Under the pieces are notes generated by a model, which saw nothing but the letters and a program-made list of their open reading frames with translations, was not told the DNA's origin and did not search any database. The translations under genes and the position numbers were made by a program. Positions 41,652 to 47,644 of a stretch of 64,000 nt of DNA are shown one piece after another. Numbering within the stretch: the first letter of the stretch is position 1; each line of letters starts with the position of its first letter. The DNA lies in contig JAJZRU010000006.1 of assembly GCA_021802555.1 (NCBI GenBank), forward strand, positions 1-64,000. Direction: 5' to 3'. Source of the DNA: Pseudomonadota bacterium (GTDB lineage Bacteria; Pseudomonadota; Gammaproteobacteria; Burkholderiales; Thiobacillaceae).

Positions 41652-41945
41652 ATGAAAAAACAGACCGTGCTGCATCTGTTGTCGGATCACAAAGAGACGA
41701 TACGCCAGCGTTTTGGCGTGCGGCATCTGTCGCTTTTTGGCTCCACCGTGCGCGACGAGGCGCAGGATGCCAGCGACGTCGACGTGCTGGTCGAGTTCGA
41801 CGGACCGGCCACGTCAGATCGCTATTTCGGCTTGCAGTTTTATCTGGAAGATTTATTTGGCTGCCCGGTTGATCTGGTCACGGACAAGGCCCTGCGTCCG
41901 GAACTGCGGCCGTACATCGAAAAGGAAGCGGTCCGTGTCGCGTGA
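41652..41945 (+). CDS. mntA: MntA-type nucleotidyltransferase antitoxin
   Basis: Minimal nucleotidyltransferase, 97 aa. Active site G30-S31-x10-D42-x-D44 (FGSTVRDEAQDASDVDVLVEF region) is exactly the MNT pattern, with a third acidic residue in CPVDLV. In MntA-HepT pairs this enzyme silences the HEPN toxin by adding AMP to its tyrosine. Starts 20 bases after xthA and overlaps hepT by 11 bases. Confidence 0.9.
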   Translation: MKKQTVLHLLSDHKETIRQRFGVRHLSLFGSTVRDEAQDASDVDVLVEFDGPATSDRYFGLQFYLEDLFGCPVDLVTDKALRPELRPYIEKEAVRVA

Positions 41946-42303
41946 ATGGCGCTTTTACGTCAGCGACATGATCGAATTCGCGGAAAAGGTGCTGGCCTAC
42001 ACCCATGAAATGGATCAATGCCGTTTCGAGCAAAGCGGCCTCAACTACGATGCCACCCTGCGCAACTTGGAACTGATCGGTGAGGCCGCCACCCCCATTC
42101 CGGATCATGTGCGTCAATTCGCCAGCCGCATCGACTGGCGACGCATCGTCGCCACGCGAAACCGGCTGATTCATGGCTATCTAGGCATCGACAACGATAC
42201 GCTCTGGAGCATTATTCAGACCGATATTCCGGCCGTGCTGAACGATCTGCATGTCCTCAAGGCCGCGGCGGATGCGGGGCAAATCATCGACCTTGCCCAG
42301 TGA
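41935..42303 (+). CDS. hepT: HepT-type HEPN RNase toxin
   Basis: 122-aa HEPN (DUF86) ribonuclease. Catalytic motif R75-x4-H80 is followed by Y82 (RNRLIHGY), the RX4HXY form whose tyrosine is the AMPylation site for MntA. GTG start with AAGGAAG 7 bases upstream, inside the mntA 3' end. The pair is complete and appears functional, opening the defence island between xthA and ampG. Confidence 0.9.
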   Translation: MSREWRFYVSDMIEFAEKVLAYTHEMDQCRFEQSGLNYDATLRNLELIGEAATPIPDHVRQFASRIDWRRIVATRNRLIHGYLGIDNDTLWSIIQTDIPAVLNDLHVLKAAADAGQIIDLAQ

Positions 42304-42342: not shown

Positions 42343-45300
42343 ATGCCGCTTAGCTGGAACGAAATCCGCAGCCGCGCCCACGAATTCGCGCGCACCTGGG
42401 CGGGCGAGGCTTCCGAGCGCGCCGAGGCGCAAAGCTTCTGGAATGACTTCTTCGCCGTGTTCGGCATCGAGCGCAGGCGCGTGGCCGTGTTCGAGAAGCA
42501 GGTGCAGATCGTCCGTGCCGGCGAAGCGCTCAAGCACGGCCGCATCGACGCCTTCTGGAAAGGCATGCTGCTCATCGAGCACAAGAGCCGCGGCGCCGAC
42601 CTCGACCGCGCCTTCGCCCAGGCGGCGGATTACTTCGACGGTCTGCCCGAGCGCGACCTGCCGCGCTACATCCTGGTGTCGGACTTCGCGTGCTTCCGCC
42701 TGTACGACCTGGAAGAGGACAGCGCAACCGAATTCAAGCTCGCCGACCTGCCCAGGCGCATCAAGCACTTCGCCTTCATCGCCGGCTACCGCACCCAGGT
42801 CATCCGCCCGCAAAACCCGGTCAACATCAAGGCCGCCGAGCGCATGGGGCGGCTGCACGACCGCCTCAAGGCCAGCGGCTACCAGGGCCACCCGCTCGAA
42901 GTGCTGCTGGTGCGCCTGCTGTTTTGTCTGTTCGCCGAGGACACCGGCATTTTCCAGCCGGCGGGCGCCTTCCGCGCCTGGCTGGACGAGCGCACCGCAC
43001 CGGACGGCTCCGACCTCGGCCCGCAACTCGCGCAGTTCTTCCAGGTGCTCAACACGCCCGAAGACCGGCGCTCGAAAAACCTCGACGAGCAGCTTGCCGC
43101 CTTTCCCTATGTCAACGGCAGGCTGTTCGAGGAGGCGCTGCCCATCGCCGCCTTCGACGCCGCCATGCGCGAAGCGCTGCTGGACTGCACGGCGCTCGAC
43201 TGGAGCGCCATCTCGCCCGCCATTTTCGGTGCGCTGTTCCAGAGCATCATGGACGACAAGGCCAGGCGAAATCTGGGCGCGCACTACACCAGCGAAGAAA
43301 ACATCCTCAAGCTCATCAAGCCGCTGTTCCTCGACGAGCTGTGGGCCGAGTTCGAGCGCGTGAAGAACAACAGGAACCGGCTATTCGAGTTCCACAAAAA
43401 GCTGCGCTCGCTCACCTTCTTCGACCCTGCCTGCGGCTGCGGCAACTTCCTCGTCATCGCCTACCGCGAACTGCGGACGCTGGAACTGGAAGTCTTGCGC
43501 ACCGTGCACCAGGAGCAGGGCTCGCGCTTTCTCGACATCCACCAGGAAATCCAGCTCGACGTGGACCAGTTCCACGGCATCGAGATTGAGGAGTTTCCCG
43601 CCCAGATCGCCCAGGTGGCGCTGTGGCTCATGGATCACCAGATGAACGTGCGCGTGAGCGAAGAATTCGGCCTGTACTTCGCGCGCATCCCGCTCAAGAC
43701 CAGCCCGCACATCGTGCACGGCAACGCGCTTACGCTCGACTGGAACGATGTGCTGCTGGCCGAGCGGGCCAGCTTCGTATTCGGCAATCCGCCCTTTGTC
43801 GGCGCCAAGTTCATGGGCGACGAACAACGCGAGGATGCGCGCCGCGTCTTCGCGGGCATCCATGGCGGCGGCCTGCTGGATTTCGTCGCCGCCTGGTATG
43901 TGAAGGCGGCGCGCTACCTTCACCCCTCTCCCGCAAGCGGGAGAGGGGCAGGGGGTGAGGGAGCGGGCATGGGCACTATCGTCAGACGCCCGCCCGCTCG
44001 CCTCCCCGATGACAAGCTGGGCTTCGCCCGGCAGCTTCGCCAGGCGCAAACCGATGCCGAAACATTGATGTGGCACATGCTGCGCAATCGCGCTCTGAAA
44101 AACGCAAAATTCCGGCGCCAACATCCTGCCGGTAAATACATCCTTGATTTCTATTGCCCTGAGCATCGGCTTGCCGTCGAACTGGACGGAGGTCAGCACA
44201 ATGGCTCCGAACGTGATGCGCAACGCGATGCCTGGCTTGCGGAACAAGGTGTCACCGTCCTGCGTTTCTGGAACAACGAGGTGCTGCAGGAAACCGAGGC
44301 GGTCCTGCAATGCATCTGGCAGGCATTGCCTGATATCGAGGCGCCTCCCTCACCCCCAACCCCTCTCCCGCTTGCGGGAGAGGGGGGCAAGATTCGCTGC
44401 GCCTTCGTCTCCACCAACTCCATCACCCAGGGCGAGCAGGTGGGCGTGCTGTGGGGCTGGCTATTGGGCCACGGTATGCACATCCACTTCGCCCACCGCA
44501 CCTTTCAGTGGAGCAACGAGGCGAAAGGCGTGGCGGCGGTGCACTGCGTCATCATTGGCTTCGGCCCCTTCGACGTGGCCGGCAAGACCATCTATGAATA
44601 CGAGGACATCAAAGGCGAACCGCACGCGGTGAACGGGGCGAACATCAATCCGTATCTGGTGGATGCGCCGGACGTGTTGTTGGAAAAGCGCAGCAAGCCG
44701 ATTTCTGCCGTACCATCCATGTCGTTTGGCAACCAACCCATCGACGGCGGCAATCTCATCCTATCCGAGGAAGAAAGGAACGATCTGTTGGAGCTGGAGC
44801 CACAGGCTGCGCCATACGTTCGGGTGTTTTTGGGCGCGGAAGAATTCCTCAACAGACTACCCCGATATTGCCTATGGCTTAAAGACGCGACGCCGGACGA
44901 ACTGCGCCGCATGCCCTCGGTACGCAAGCGAATCGAGGCCGTGAAAGCGTTCCGTGAAGCAAGCAAACGCCAAGCGACGCAGGAGCTTGCGCAAACGCCA
45001 TCGCAATTCGCATTCGCATCACATCCGAGCACAGACTATTTGTTGGTCCCCAGCGTCAGTTCAGAGCGGCGACAGTTCGTGCCCATTGGCTTCATGCCGC
45101 CCGAAGTGATTGCAAGCAATCTTTGTCTGATCGTGCCCCAAGCGACGCTCTACCACTTCGGCGTGCTGTCCTCCACGATGCATAATGCCTGGATACGCTA
45201 CGTCGCCGGTCGCTTGAAAAGCGACTATCGTTATTCGGCAGGCATCGTCTACAACAACTTCCCCTGGCCCGATTCCCCCATCGACGCCCAGCGCGAAAAA

Positions 45301-45558
45301 ATCGAAGCCGCCGCCCAAGCCGTGCTCGACGCCCGCGCGCAATTCCCCGATGCCTCGTTAGCCGACCTCTACGATCCGCTCACCATGCCGCCCGCGCTGG
45401 TCAAAGCGCATCAGAAGCTCGACGCCGCAGTGGACGCCGCCTACGGCAAGAAGAGCTTCAAGAGCGACGCCGAGCGCGTGGCCTTCCTGTTCGAGCGCCA
45501 TCAGGCGCTAACGGCGCCGGTGCAGGTCGCGGCAAAACTCAAGCGCGGGCGGTTATAG
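42343..45558 (+). CDS. MmeI-like (type IIL) restriction-methylation enzyme with in-frame DUF559 insertion
   Basis: 1071 aa. The N-terminal nuclease has D69-x9-E79-H-K81 (RIDAFWKGMLLIEHKSRG), the D-x9-ExK set of MmeI. A helical connector follows, then a gamma-class N6-adenine methyltransferase with LGAHYTSEENILK, FFDPACGCGNFLVIAYREL (motif I, about 356-374) and GNPPFVGAKFMG (motif IV, about 482). Past the cassette come CAFVSTNSITQGEQV and the target-recognition region with NNFPWPDSP. Residues about 527-681 are foreign to the family: a DUF559 nuclease cassette bounded by inverted repeats. Removing it leaves about 916 aa, close to the roughly 920 aa of MmeI. Cleavage and modification in one chain need no partner gene. 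Confidence 0.85.
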   Translation: MPLSWNEIRSRAHEFARTWAGEASERAEAQSFWNDFFAVFGIERRRVAVFEKQVQIVRAGEALKHGRIDAFWKGMLLIEHKSRGADLDRAFAQAADYFDGLPERDLPRYILVSDFACFRLYDLEEDSATEFKLADLPRRIKHFAFIAGYRTQVIRPQNPVNIKAAERMGRLHDRLKASGYQGHPLEVLLVRLLFCLFAEDTGIFQPAGAFRAWLDERTAPDGSDLGPQLAQFFQVLNTPEDRRSKNLDEQLAAFPYVNGRLFEEALPIAAFDAAMREALLDCTALDWSAISPAIFGALFQSIMDDKARRNLGAHYTSEENILKLIKPLFLDELWAEFERVKNNRNRLFEFHKKLRSLTFFDPACGCGNFLVIAYRELRTLELEVLRTVHQEQGSRFLDIHQEIQLDVDQFHGIEIEEFPAQIAQVALWLMDHQMNVRVSEEFGLYFARIPLKTSPHIVHGNALTLDWNDVLLAERASFVFGNPPFVGAKFMGDEQREDARRVFAGIHGGGLLDFVAAWYVKAARYLHPSPASGRGAGGEGAGMGTIVRRPPARLPDDKLGFARQLRQAQTDAETLMWHMLRNRALKNAKFRRQHPAGKYILDFYCPEHRLAVELDGGQHNGSERDAQRDAWLAEQGVTVLRFWNNEVLQETEAVLQCIWQALPDIEAPPSPPTPLPLAGEGGKIRCAFVSTNSITQGEQVGVLWGWLLGHGMHIHFAHRTFQWSNEAKGVAAVHCVIIGFGPFDVAGKTIYEYEDIKGEPHAVNGANINPYLVDAPDVLLEKRSKPISAVPSMSFGNQPIDGGNLILSEEERNDLLELEPQAAPYVRVFLGAEEFLNRLPRYCLWLKDATPDELRRMPSVRKRIEAVKAFREASKRQATQELAQTPSQFAFASHPSTDYLLVPSVSSERRQFVPIGFMPPEVIASNLCLIVPQATLYHFGVLSSTMHNAWIRYVAGRLKSDYRYSAGIVYNNFPWPDSPIDAQREKIEAAAQAVLDARAQFPDASLADLYDPLTMPPALVKAHQKLDAAVDAAYGKKSFKSDAERVAFLFERHQALTAPVQVAAKLKRGRL
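43923..43962. repeat. Left inverted repeat of the DUF559 cassette
   Basis: Begins with a palindrome of arms CCCCTCTCCCGC / GCGGGAGAGGGG around AA (43923-43948), then CAGGGGGTGAGGGA. Translated in the host frame it reads as the low-complexity peptide PSPASGRGAGGEG. Confidence 0.9.
44346..44385. repeat. Right inverted repeat of the DUF559 cassette
   Basis: Reverse complement of the left repeat with only CA to TT changed (44358-44359 on the opposite strand). Same 12-bp-arm palindrome at 44360-44385. Translated in frame as PPSPPTPLPLAGEGG. Confidence 0.9.
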
Positions 45559-45651: not shown

Positions 45652-46132
45652 ATGGCGACTACTGTATTGACCGATAGGGATATCGAAGGTCTGCTGAGTA
45701 TGCCCAAGCAGGTCGAGAATCCTGGTGCCAAATTCCGTACGGAGAAAAAGCATGCCCGCAAGGATTATCGGCTGATAAGTGGCGACGGAATACATCGGTT
45801 TGCTTTGTTCGTTCGGCAAAGCACGGTGTTGCCGGAGAACTTCTCAGCAGGCCTGCGATGGTTGCCCAAGAGCGGGGAGGATGTGACCCTTATCCGTTTC
45901 AACGGCCCGAGCCATCCGCATTCCAACTCGATTGAAGGCGATCGGTTCGAGTTTGTTTGCCATGTCCACCAGGCCACGGAGCGCTATATTGCCGCCGGGA
46001 AAAAGGATGAAGGCTTTGCCGAGCGGAACGGGGAAGTACAAGACGCTGAACGGCGCGCTCCATTGTCTGGTTAAGCGCTGCAACATCTCCGGCTTGAATA
46101 CCCAGCCGGAAGAAGCGGATTTGTTTGAATGA
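45652..46132 (+). pseudogene. DUF6978-like gene with a single-base frameshift
   Basis: The frame from ATG 45652 runs to a stop at 46074 (140 aa), but its last 15 residues (NGEVQDAERRAPLSG) look like out-of-frame sequence. In the next frame GKYKTLNGALHCLVKRCNIS continues to a TGA at 46132 that overlaps the following ATG (ATGA), as expected for the original end. One extra G in the GGGG run at 46030-46033 explains the shift; with three Gs the product would be 159 aa. The N-terminal part (LRWLPKSGEDVTLIRFNGPS) resembles DUF6978 proteins, which accompany DUF1828 genes. May be decay, slippage-controlled expression or a sequencing error. Confidence 0.65.
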
Positions 46133-46905
46133 TGAATATCGAGGAAATCAGGAAGACGCTGTGTTCGACCCTTTGCGCCGACGTGAACGTTATCGAGCGG
46201 GGCGAGGGGCTTCTTTTTGTCGCGACGCCTTTCGCTTTTGCAGATGGCGATGCGTATTCCATTTATCTCAAACAACTTCCCGCAGGAGGATTTCGCATTA
46301 CCGACATGGGTGGAACCCTGATGCATTTGAGTTATGAAAACGATATCGACAAGTTTCGCGAGGGAACGCGGGGCAAGGTATTCAATCAGGTTTTGTCGGA
46401 AATGGATTTGGCCGAAGAGGATGGGGAGTTCTATATCGATATCTCCGCTACTAGCCTCGGCACGGGGCTTTTCCGTTTCGGGCAAGCACTGACGCGCTTG
46501 CATGACCTGACGTTTCTTAACCGGGTACGGGTAGAGAGCACTTTCTATGAGGATTTGCGGGAGAAACTGCGCGGCTACGTCGATGCCGAGCGCATCCACG
46601 AAGGCTATATTGTGCCCGGCGTGACGAGTGCCGCTGACTATCCTGTGGACTATTTTATCGAGGGTGGCGCGTTGCCTGTGTATCTGTTTGGTGTTCCCAA
46701 CCGAGACAAGGCGCGCCTGGCGACCATCATCTTGCAGCACTTGATCGCGGCTGGCAGCAATTTCAATTCGATGATTGTCTTTCAGAATGCATCGGACATT
46801 CCCTCGCGAGACCTAAATCGCCTCATGAATGCCGCCAACGATATGATTGCATCCCTGGACGCTTCCGGCGATTTCGAGCGGAAGCTGTTGCAGCGGGTGA
46901 AATAA
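46129..46905 (+). CDS. DUF1828-domain protein
   Basis: 258 aa. N-terminal DUF1828 pattern: an acidic start followed by FVATPFAFADGDAYSIYLKQ and GFRITDMGGTLMHLSYEND. The C-terminal half is a mixed alpha/beta domain (DYFIEGGALPVYLFGVPNRD, then LQHLIAAGSNFNSMIVFQN). No catalytic motif recognised. It is translationally coupled to the preceding frameshifted gene. Such pairs occur on phages and mobile DNA and may be toxin-antitoxin or anti-phage units; this is inferred from company only. Composition is more AT-rich than the flanking core genes. Confidence 0.7.
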   Translation: MMNIEEIRKTLCSTLCADVNVIERGEGLLFVATPFAFADGDAYSIYLKQLPAGGFRITDMGGTLMHLSYENDIDKFREGTRGKVFNQVLSEMDLAEEDGEFYIDISATSLGTGLFRFGQALTRLHDLTFLNRVRVESTFYEDLREKLRGYVDAERIHEGYIVPGVTSAADYPVDYFIEGGALPVYLFGVPNRDKARLATIILQHLIAAGSNFNSMIVFQNASDIPSRDLNRLMNAANDMIASLDASGDFERKLLQRVK

Positions 46906-46927
46906 GCGAGCCTGAATTGTTCGCCAG

Positions 46928-47644
46928 TCAGGCGGCGCGGCGTTGCTCGAAGCGGAGGGCTTCTTCGATTTCTTTTTCGCCAACGCCGTAGTCTTCCGCC
47001 ATGTCTTCCAGCGAATCGCCTGCCTGGAAGCGATCGAAAATGATTTCTGTCGGCACAGCCGACTTGGTCAGCACAGGCCGGCCAAATGACAGGGAAGGAT
47101 CGATCACGATGGTCTTGGGTTGCTCGGCGGCATGTCCGTAACTGCGGCTGTACGGGAATAACCGAACCGGATTGCCCTTGCGATCCCTTTCAATGCGCGC
47201 CAGCGCGTCCATGAACTCGTCGCGCAGAGCTTCCTGGCCCTGCTGCGAAACATTCAACAGCTTTGAGGCCTGCTCCACGAACAGATCGATGCCGTTGGTC
47301 ATGAACTGGCGATCGATAAGCGGCCTGTCGGCACCCAACCGGTTGCGCACGTATTCAACGGCATCACGCACCTTGTGCAGCCGCACCCCGTGTATCTGTC
47401 GGATGGCCGCAAGGACATGCAATTCGCACAAATTGGCGAAGGACAGCAATTTGGCGTTTGGGTCGGCGGCTTGAATCACCGCCTTAAATTGCTTGGTCTT
47501 GCCATCACTGCGGTAACTCTGGCCAAAGCTCCAGGCTTTGACTGTTGCCAAGGGGAGGCTGAGCATATAGGCGGCCTCGTTGGCCGGATAGGCGGGCTTA
47601 TCGAAAACGGTGGCCTTTGTCAGACGTTGAGTCATGGGCGGCAT
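46928..47644 (-). CDS. DUF433 antitoxin-like DNA-binding protein
   Basis: 238 aa. The N-terminal part (PANEAAYMLSLPLATVKAWS) looks like a MerR-type helix-turn-helix. The C-terminal part is DUF433 (RPVLTKSAVPTEIIFDRFQA, then GDSLEDMAEDYGVGEKEIEE), also a winged-helix-like antitoxin domain. DUF433 genes are usually followed by a PIN-like DUF5615 toxin, but here only 22 bases separate its end from the convergent DUF1828 gene, so the toxin is absent. ATG 47635 is an alternative start. It closes the island next to ampG. Confidence 0.75.
   Translation of the reverse strand: MPPMTQRLTKATVFDKPAYPANEAAYMLSLPLATVKAWSFGQSYRSDGKTKQFKAVIQAADPNAKLLSFANLCELHVLAAIRQIHGVRLHKVRDAVEYVRNRLGADRPLIDRQFMTNGIDLFVEQASKLLNVSQQGQEALRDEFMDALARIERDRKGNPVRLFPYSRSYGHAAEQPKTIVIDPSLSFGRPVLTKSAVPTEIIFDRFQAGDSLEDMAEDYGVGEKEIEEALRFEQRRAA

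Follow-up and report, generated by a model that had tools for sequence, protein, structure and literature searches.

An inverted pair of TM repeats enclosing a DUF559 nuclease inside an MmeI-like enzyme: a probable insertion of a widespread mobile element

BoxC/PIT/TM repeats are short bacterial sequences whose origin has long been puzzling. Triplex formation has been demonstrated for the TM motif of Escherichia coli (PMC4666352). Every one of the 23 TM copies of E. coli MG1655 is intergenic, activities that could give TM its mobility have never been found nearby, and remnants of transposases or integrases are absent near TM sites (Holder et al. 2015, PMC4666352). Palindromic inserts that lie in frame within genes, those for tRNA synthetases and repair proteins included, have been described as intragenic GTAG/CGTC REPs and as Rickettsia palindromic elements (PMC3733652). 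DUF559 has been assigned to the EDxHD family (PMC9403480); YcjD has been placed among the PD-(D/E)xK nucleases related to Vsr (PMC1189080), and the Caulobacter DUF559 protein VsrA acts with a solitary cytosine methyltransferase (PMC12907096). The current study concerns a DUF559 cassette in a 64,000-nucleotide stretch of a Thiobacillaceae genome (the window). We propose that this cassette is probably one insertion of a widespread mobile element, TM-DUF559, in which an inverted pair of TM repeats encloses a homing-type PD-(D/E)xK nuclease.

The cassette resides in a gene for an MmeI-like enzyme, whose reading frame (42343-45558) has no interruption over its whole length (Table 1). The Pfam domains MmeI_N, MmeI_hel, MmeI_Mtase, MmeI_TRD and MmeI_C are found on both sides of DUF559, which falls between the Mtase and TRD domains, and the description of a unit open in the host frame, given by an earlier sequence-only reading of the window, is thereby borne out. 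The same reading had described inverted repeats of 40 bp with 38 identical positions; the repeats are present, but measure 41 bp with 39 identical, and each contains the palindrome with 12-bp arms that had been described, perfect and with a 2-base centre, for which the chance expectation in the window is 0.00 (100 shuffles). An ATG and a ribosome site of its own were likewise confirmed for DUF559, the ATG being in frame and the first stop being that of the host. The insert is a whole number of codons, as claimed, but the figure of 155 codons included two codons of the loop and the net length is 153. In the AlphaFold model of the whole protein, the insert is located between a helix (residues 514-526) and a strand (685-690), and the nuclease is modelled with confidence as a side domain (556-661), which is joined to the host by two disordered linkers (531-550 and 666-682, pLDDT <50). 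The left repeat translates to a PSPASGRGAGGEG linker and the right repeat to a PPSPPTPLPLAGEG linker. Just upstream of the MmeI gene, at 41652-42300, there is a nucleotidyltransferase/HepT-like pair, probably a toxin-antitoxin module; DUF6978-like, DUF1828 and DUF433 genes follow downstream (45655-47644), which fits a defence-type neighbourhood.

Table 1. Features of the cassette and its host gene, in coordinates of the window
Feature	Position	Strand	Details or basis
Host gene, MmeI-like type IIL restriction-methylation enzyme	42343..45558	+	ORF, 1071 aa including the insert
Host helix preceding the insert (FVAAWYVKAARYLH)	43886..43923	+	Also in empty homologues and Gallionella L074
Left TM/BoxC/PIT repeat	43923..43963	+	Stem CCCTCTCCC, loop, stem GGGAGAGGG, inward-facing tail GGGGTGAGGG
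Net inserted stretch	43924..44382	+	459 bp = 153 codons, measured against the 6-residue loop of relatives
AGGGAG (43958-43963, from the TM tail) and internal DUF559 ATG (43969)	43958..43971	+	Sequence
DUF559 nuclease domain	44020..44328	+	aa 560-662; Pfam E 1.2e-37
Predicted active site D602, E613, D615, H619 (LDF...VELDGGQH)	44146..44199	+	Invariance in the alignment
Right TM/BoxC/PIT repeat, inverted	44345..44385	-	39/41 identical to the left repeat
Host strand following the insert (GGKIRCAFVSTNSITQGEQV)	44383..44441	+	Empty homologues, Gallionella L074, AlphaFold model

MmeI homologues without the cassette are 918-921 aa long, in agreement with the size of about 920 aa quoted in the sequence-only reading for enzymes lacking the domain. 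The cassette-free alleles that it proposed to seek exist, one of them in the same genus (genome G369), with an Mtase segment 97% identical to that of the window, and the cassette is also absent from the MmeI genes of genomes G374, G375, G385 and G396. As relatives including one of the same genus lack it, the DUF559 cassette is an insertion. In G369, the residues matching host residues 527 and 681 are adjacent. The empty loops at the DNA level encode Y-IVGSST-R (G369) and Y-IAGQPT-R (G375), and removal of 43924-44382 from the window leaves Y-LHGGKI-R, of the same length, the joined host flanks being CTT CAC / GGG GGC AAG ATT CGC (Y-L-H-G-G-K-I-R). The unit enters DNA without loss of host residues. 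The ends of the window insert are known to 1-3 bases only, because the loop of the same-genus relative has diverged, and this relative was rejected as an exact empty site at the DNA level for the same reason. A Gallionella MmeI (L074) carries a cassette in the same loop with a DUF559 from another branch of the tree, which suggests that the loop has probably been struck at least twice. The identity of the window cassette to any other cassette found is 65% at most, so that it need not be a very recent arrival.

On the DUF559 tree, which has about 115 columns and many open forks, the in-host cassettes are scattered (27 changes for 19 labels, 36.7 when shuffled) and the insertions appear, by sequence, to be independent. 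An ordinary ancient domain fusion, or an artefact of assembly, is therefore hardly credible as an explanation, even with many of the loci coming from metagenome assemblies: to the independent insertions must be added the cassette-free alleles known from the window's genus and family and the in-frame cassettes of isolates, namely Nitrosomonas sp. Nm166, N. nitrosa, Mariprofundus erugo and two Luteimonas strains.

Comparison of the arrangement CCCTCTCCC-loop-GGGAGAGGG-loop-GGGGTGAGGG with Table 1 of PMC4666352 identifies both repeats, on sequence grounds, as members of the BoxC/PIT/TM triplex class, with a pyrimidine stem, a purine stem and a G-rich third strand. The 2.77-Mb genome contains eleven exact copies of the palindrome core pattern and one DUF559 only. 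The association of TM with DUF559 was examined in a sample of the class, in which 369 genomes supplied 87 uncut DUF559 loci and the same loci supplied 274 control windows. TM-type hairpins were located on both sides of DUF559 in 54 loci, on one side in 24 and on neither in 9; in the controls, hairpins on both sides were seen in 2 of 274. Thus, of the possibility raised beforehand that the repeats are genome-wide hairpins flanking the domain by chance, the genome-wide occurrence holds but the chance flanking does not (54/87 vs 2/274). At least three TM copies were present in 49 of the 78 genomes with a strong DUF559 match and in 36 of the 291 without (OR 12, p 2e-18), counted with a TM pattern that finds the CCTCTCCC type only and undercounts other types. 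Within families, genomes with DUF559 had more TM in 27 comparisons and fewer in 5, with 6 ties (p 1e-4), and the association is also seen in the family to which the window belongs (p 1e-5), where both further genomes of its genus have neither TM nor a DUF559 match. The arm sequence or subtype of TM varies with DUF559 distance even across phyla (Mantel r 0.40, p 0.001), which indicates linkage and not recognition, as co-inheritance of one unit would also produce it.

DUF559 might instead be a passenger: TM would be moved by some other enzyme, such as a RAYT or a different transposase, and DUF559, a nuclease of homing or repair type, would have been caught between two TM copies or would use them for landing. 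We regard this as possible but rather unlikely. RAYTs occur commonly in the genomes concerned (G000 has three to five), and most genomes with DUF559 contain other transposases too. Against this, TM abundance is linked fourfold more strongly to DUF559 than to RAYT (OR 12 vs 3), and the mean number of TM copies is 15.4 in genomes with DUF559 and without RAYT compared to 3.2 in genomes with RAYT and without DUF559. Moreover, TM hairpins are absent from the vicinity of the three Y1 transposase genes that were initially found in G000, in keeping with the lack of transposase and integrase remnants at TM sites in the account of Holder et al. (PMC4666352). Also in favour of a passenger are 17 genomes that have at least ten TM copies yet no strong DUF559; these indicate that TM can persist or spread alone, or that DUF559 was lost, and they disfavour a strict need of TM for DUF559. 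Target sites bear on the same question. No target-site duplications above shuffles were detected at the hairpin edge, and at the repeat ends of 127 elements their distribution was as in shuffles, except for locus L095 and the copies of genome G032. This general absence speaks against transport of a passenger by a conventional transposase; the G032 copies, with the 9-bp duplications typical of DDE transposases, speak for it. Genome G032 possesses three cassette copies (L026, L187, L190) that are 98-99% identical in unrelated flanks, which is evidence of mobility. Each is part of a 534-bp TIR-TM-DUF559-TM-TIR unit whose terminal inverted repeats are longer than TM alone and whose 9-bp duplications, read from the printed ends, are AATCTGCAC and GTTACAAAC. 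Because of the longer inverted repeats and the duplications, these copies were probably moved in trans by a conventional (DDE) transposase. There may thus be two ways for TM-DUF559 to move: the general one leaves no duplication, and in the other a conventional transposon has captured the unit.

At L095, a 14-bp direct repeat, GGCTTCTCTTAACA, flanks the DUF559 element (3911 and about 4447), which is unique among the TM-bounded copies. The S. meliloti DUF559 locus (L179:2339-2965) lies between inverted repeats of 104 bp, two TM units being present on either side. In E. coli, the DUF559 gene ycjD (L176:2501-2806 with its 3' flank; L181) is situated beside sapF and fabI and has a degenerate TM repeat 3' of it, apparently at the same place as TM copy 9 in Table 1 of PMC4666352 (29 min); the locus may be a fossil TM-DUF559 element. 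The ycjD locus and the Sinorhizobium pSymB locus were rejected as clean empty sites, as their differences are a large locus replacement or an IS insertion.

The enclosed domain matches DUF559 (PF04480) with 128.5 bits, compared to a Pfam gathering cut-off of 20.6, and its AF2 model has a pLDDT of 88. The best PDB folds for this model are those of NGO0050 (3hrl, E 6e-8) and of I-Bth0305I in its catalytic domain (3r3p, E 2e-4, with a TM-score of 0.75 by target length). When the DUF559 profile was searched against the PDB, toxin B chains, which are unrelated, gave short matches that were dismissed as noise (E 0.003 and above). DUF559 is therefore predicted to fold like the homing endonuclease I-Bth0305I, in agreement with its placements through YcjD (PMC1189080) and in the EDxHD family (PMC9403480). 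Residues E573, D602, E613, D615 and H619 are invariant in all 115 aligned copies, 37 in-host ones included, and for embedded copies that share a site, dN/dS, where computable, is 0.06-0.19 (Nei-Gojobori, a rough figure with dS often near saturation). The embedded nuclease thus appears to be catalytically intact and under purifying selection. At one and the same site, the dS of the cassette exceeds that of the surrounding host gene (about 1.1 vs 0.3-0.5 in YgiQ, 2.3 vs 0.6 in RecG; L159, L163 and L166 against L160 and L161), which hints at repeated same-site replacement, perhaps homing, rather than descent alone.

The class-sample copies lie mostly between genes, and those that survive within genes are in the sense direction, in the DUF559 frame and free of stops from repeat to repeat. 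A location in a long frame was seen for 9 of the 54 both-sided elements and for none of the 33 others. Repeats and flanks are clear in 84 elements, of which 32 lie within genes, all 32 in the DUF559 frame and none in another frame only; frame and freedom from stops were kept in 35/35 in-host elements examined. A start codon between the left TM and the domain is present in 75 of 104 elements. Since the element seldom has an open frame in antisense, the all-sense, in-frame pattern is partly survivorship. Eight long open joins that suggested antisense in-gene insertions were inspected and discarded, as GC-rich coding DNA was judged to have given spurious antisense frames there. A search for loci similar to the window cassette, many of them in long frames, gave a broad list of hosts, and similar elements occur inside proteins of several bacterial phyla. 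Hosts identified by profile are ValS, LeuS, RecG, PriA, TrpC, MetH, an AsnB-like amidotransferase, HsdM, HrpA, MmeI, N4/N6 methylases, DUF1156 methylases, Mur ligase and a YgiQ-like radical SAM protein; the class sample adds HsdS, HsdR and an aminotransferase. The ValS profile match runs up to position 365 and resumes at 366 after the insert, and that of LeuS runs up to 360 and resumes at 363. These two genes come from Nevskia and Gemmataceae, and each is the sole match over the family cut-off in its genome. Given sole copies whose profile resumes within 0-2 residues, the fused ValS and LeuS must work, provided that the assemblies are right and complete. A count of units open in host genes had been proposed beforehand, and with many such units, the empty alleles and the TM association, the earlier description of a frame-preserving mobile cassette carrying a nuclease is supported. 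At L097, L138, L162 and L163, tandem TM-derived peptide repeats (LSQRERELEIGV..., EGTQGEGTQ...) occur in frame beside the cassette, which indicates that nested or expanded TM copies stay translated too.

The hosts of the class sample are mostly restriction-modification proteins, the aminotransferase being the exception. At loci L192, L205, L209, L213, L218, L225, L238 and L243, most hosts are DNA methylases or subunits of type I restriction-modification systems, whose share of the class-sample hosts is far above their share of genes. This preference, the strong purifying selection on embedded copies and the cooperation of Caulobacter VsrA with a solitary cytosine methyltransferase (PMC12907096) would suit a nuclease selected for changing the activity of its host, e.g. 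as a second nuclease or in Vsr-like repair tied to a DNA methyltransferase. We consider such a gain of function unlikely, as equally intact cassettes are present in LeuS, ValS, TrpC, MetH and PriA, where a DNA nuclease is of no obvious use, and restriction-modification genes, being mobile and weakly constrained, would be good landing sites anyway.

The cassette might also be removed before the protein works, as an intein, as a group I/II intron or by ribosomal bypass over a stem of the paired repeats. The two repeats could pair into a long stem, and inteins and bypass elements are also found in conserved genes. Nevertheless, such removal is highly improbable. No Pfam match to a Hint splicing domain was detected in any in-frame cassette scanned, which leaves no sign of protein splicing, and no Rfam intron was found at the window site, where the sole match, a weak one to a microRNA, was set aside as meaningless. 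The frame and stop-free state kept by all 35 in-host elements is needed by neither introns nor bypass.

We propose that TM-DUF559 acts through a series of steps. The unit inserts into DNA with host residues kept and generally without target-site duplication, and the copies persisting in genes are those in the sense direction, in the DUF559 frame and without a stop from repeat to repeat. The whole unit would then be translated with its host as one chain, in which the repeats form disordered Pro/Ser/Gly/Glu linkers, the nuclease folds as a side domain and the host still works. This is suggested by the sense in-frame copies, the sole-copy ValS and LeuS hosts and the AlphaFold model; being stop-free and tethered by disordered linkers, the element would be tolerated in genes. 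While embedded, the nuclease is, by sequence, kept catalytically intact under purifying selection. Lastly, DUF559 may recognise TM DNA (hairpin or triplex) and drive the spread of the unit and of solitary TM copies, in the manner of RAYTs with REPs; it would probably cut target sites or the ends of the repeats and then rely on host repair. We infer this role as driver of TM mobility from the statistics. In the window, where the host is an MmeI-like enzyme, an active DUF559 could also provide that enzyme with a second nuclease.

That TM-DUF559 is the autonomous parent of the bacterial BoxC/PIT/TM repeats, a homing-type nuclease spreading both itself and its repeats, with a stop-free, linker-bounded form that is permanent in essential proteins, unspliced and translated, seems to us an evenly balanced proposition. 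TM-DUF559 may explain where the repeat comes from, and DUF559 is a specific, testable candidate for the mobility gene of TM, E. coli K-12 holding both ycjD and TM copies. If true, a mobile element whose active-looking nuclease persists, unspliced, in functional enzymes would represent a new mode of intragenic life for selfish DNA. The earlier comparison with inteins holds for the lifestyle only and not for splicing, as the Hint domain is absent. The hosts also provide natural examples of sites in ValS, LeuS, RecG, PriA and MmeI where a domain of 150 residues can be inserted and the gene is not lost.

In its layout, TM-DUF559 has a gene between inverted hairpin repeats and solitary copies elsewhere, as in REP/RAYT elements, where solitary copies are likewise scattered and copy number follows the gene. 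However, REP/RAYT elements contain a Y1 (HUH) tyrosine transposase, whereas TM-DUF559 encloses a PD-(D/E)xK nuclease; Pfam identified DUF559 only, and no Y1 gene, inside the window cassette. IS elements and MITEs have direct repeats beside their terminal inverted repeats, which TM-bounded copies generally lack. EDxHD homing endonucleases (I-Bth0305I), free-standing or intein-borne, share with DUF559 the predicted fold (3r3p) and the E-x-D-G-x-Q-H...D motif, and the active-site residues E, D, H and D of the family are invariant in the DUF559 copies. Like homing endonucleases, DUF559 recurs at the same sites of conserved genes. Here, however, the host has no shelter in the form of an intron or intein, the nuclease would remain part of the host protein, and its homing type is predicted from sequence and fold. 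Inteins possess the Hint splicing domain that the window cassette lacks. YcjD, VsrA and NGO0050 (3hrl) belong to the same nuclease family as the window DUF559, but were studied as stand-alone genes, and the available parts of PMC1189080 and PMC12907096 do not mention TM repeats. No description of a TM-DUF559 element was found in the open-access papers on DUF559 that were covered. BoxC/PIT/TM repeats (PMC4666352) share the stem-loop-stem-tail layout of the window repeats and nearly match them in sequence; as described, they are short, intergenic in E. coli MG1655 and without a mobility gene nearby, whereas here inverted pairs enclose a nuclease gene and are also found inside coding genes. The GTAG/CGTC REPs and Rickettsia palindromic elements (PMC3733652) are, like TM-DUF559, in frame and translated as extra residues, but they add a repeat peptide of 20-82 aa and no gene, while TM-DUF559 adds about 150 aa with a selected enzyme domain. 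Therefore, what is new here is a nuclease-carrying counterpart of already known palindromic in-gene inserts, with a real chance of being a categorically new element.
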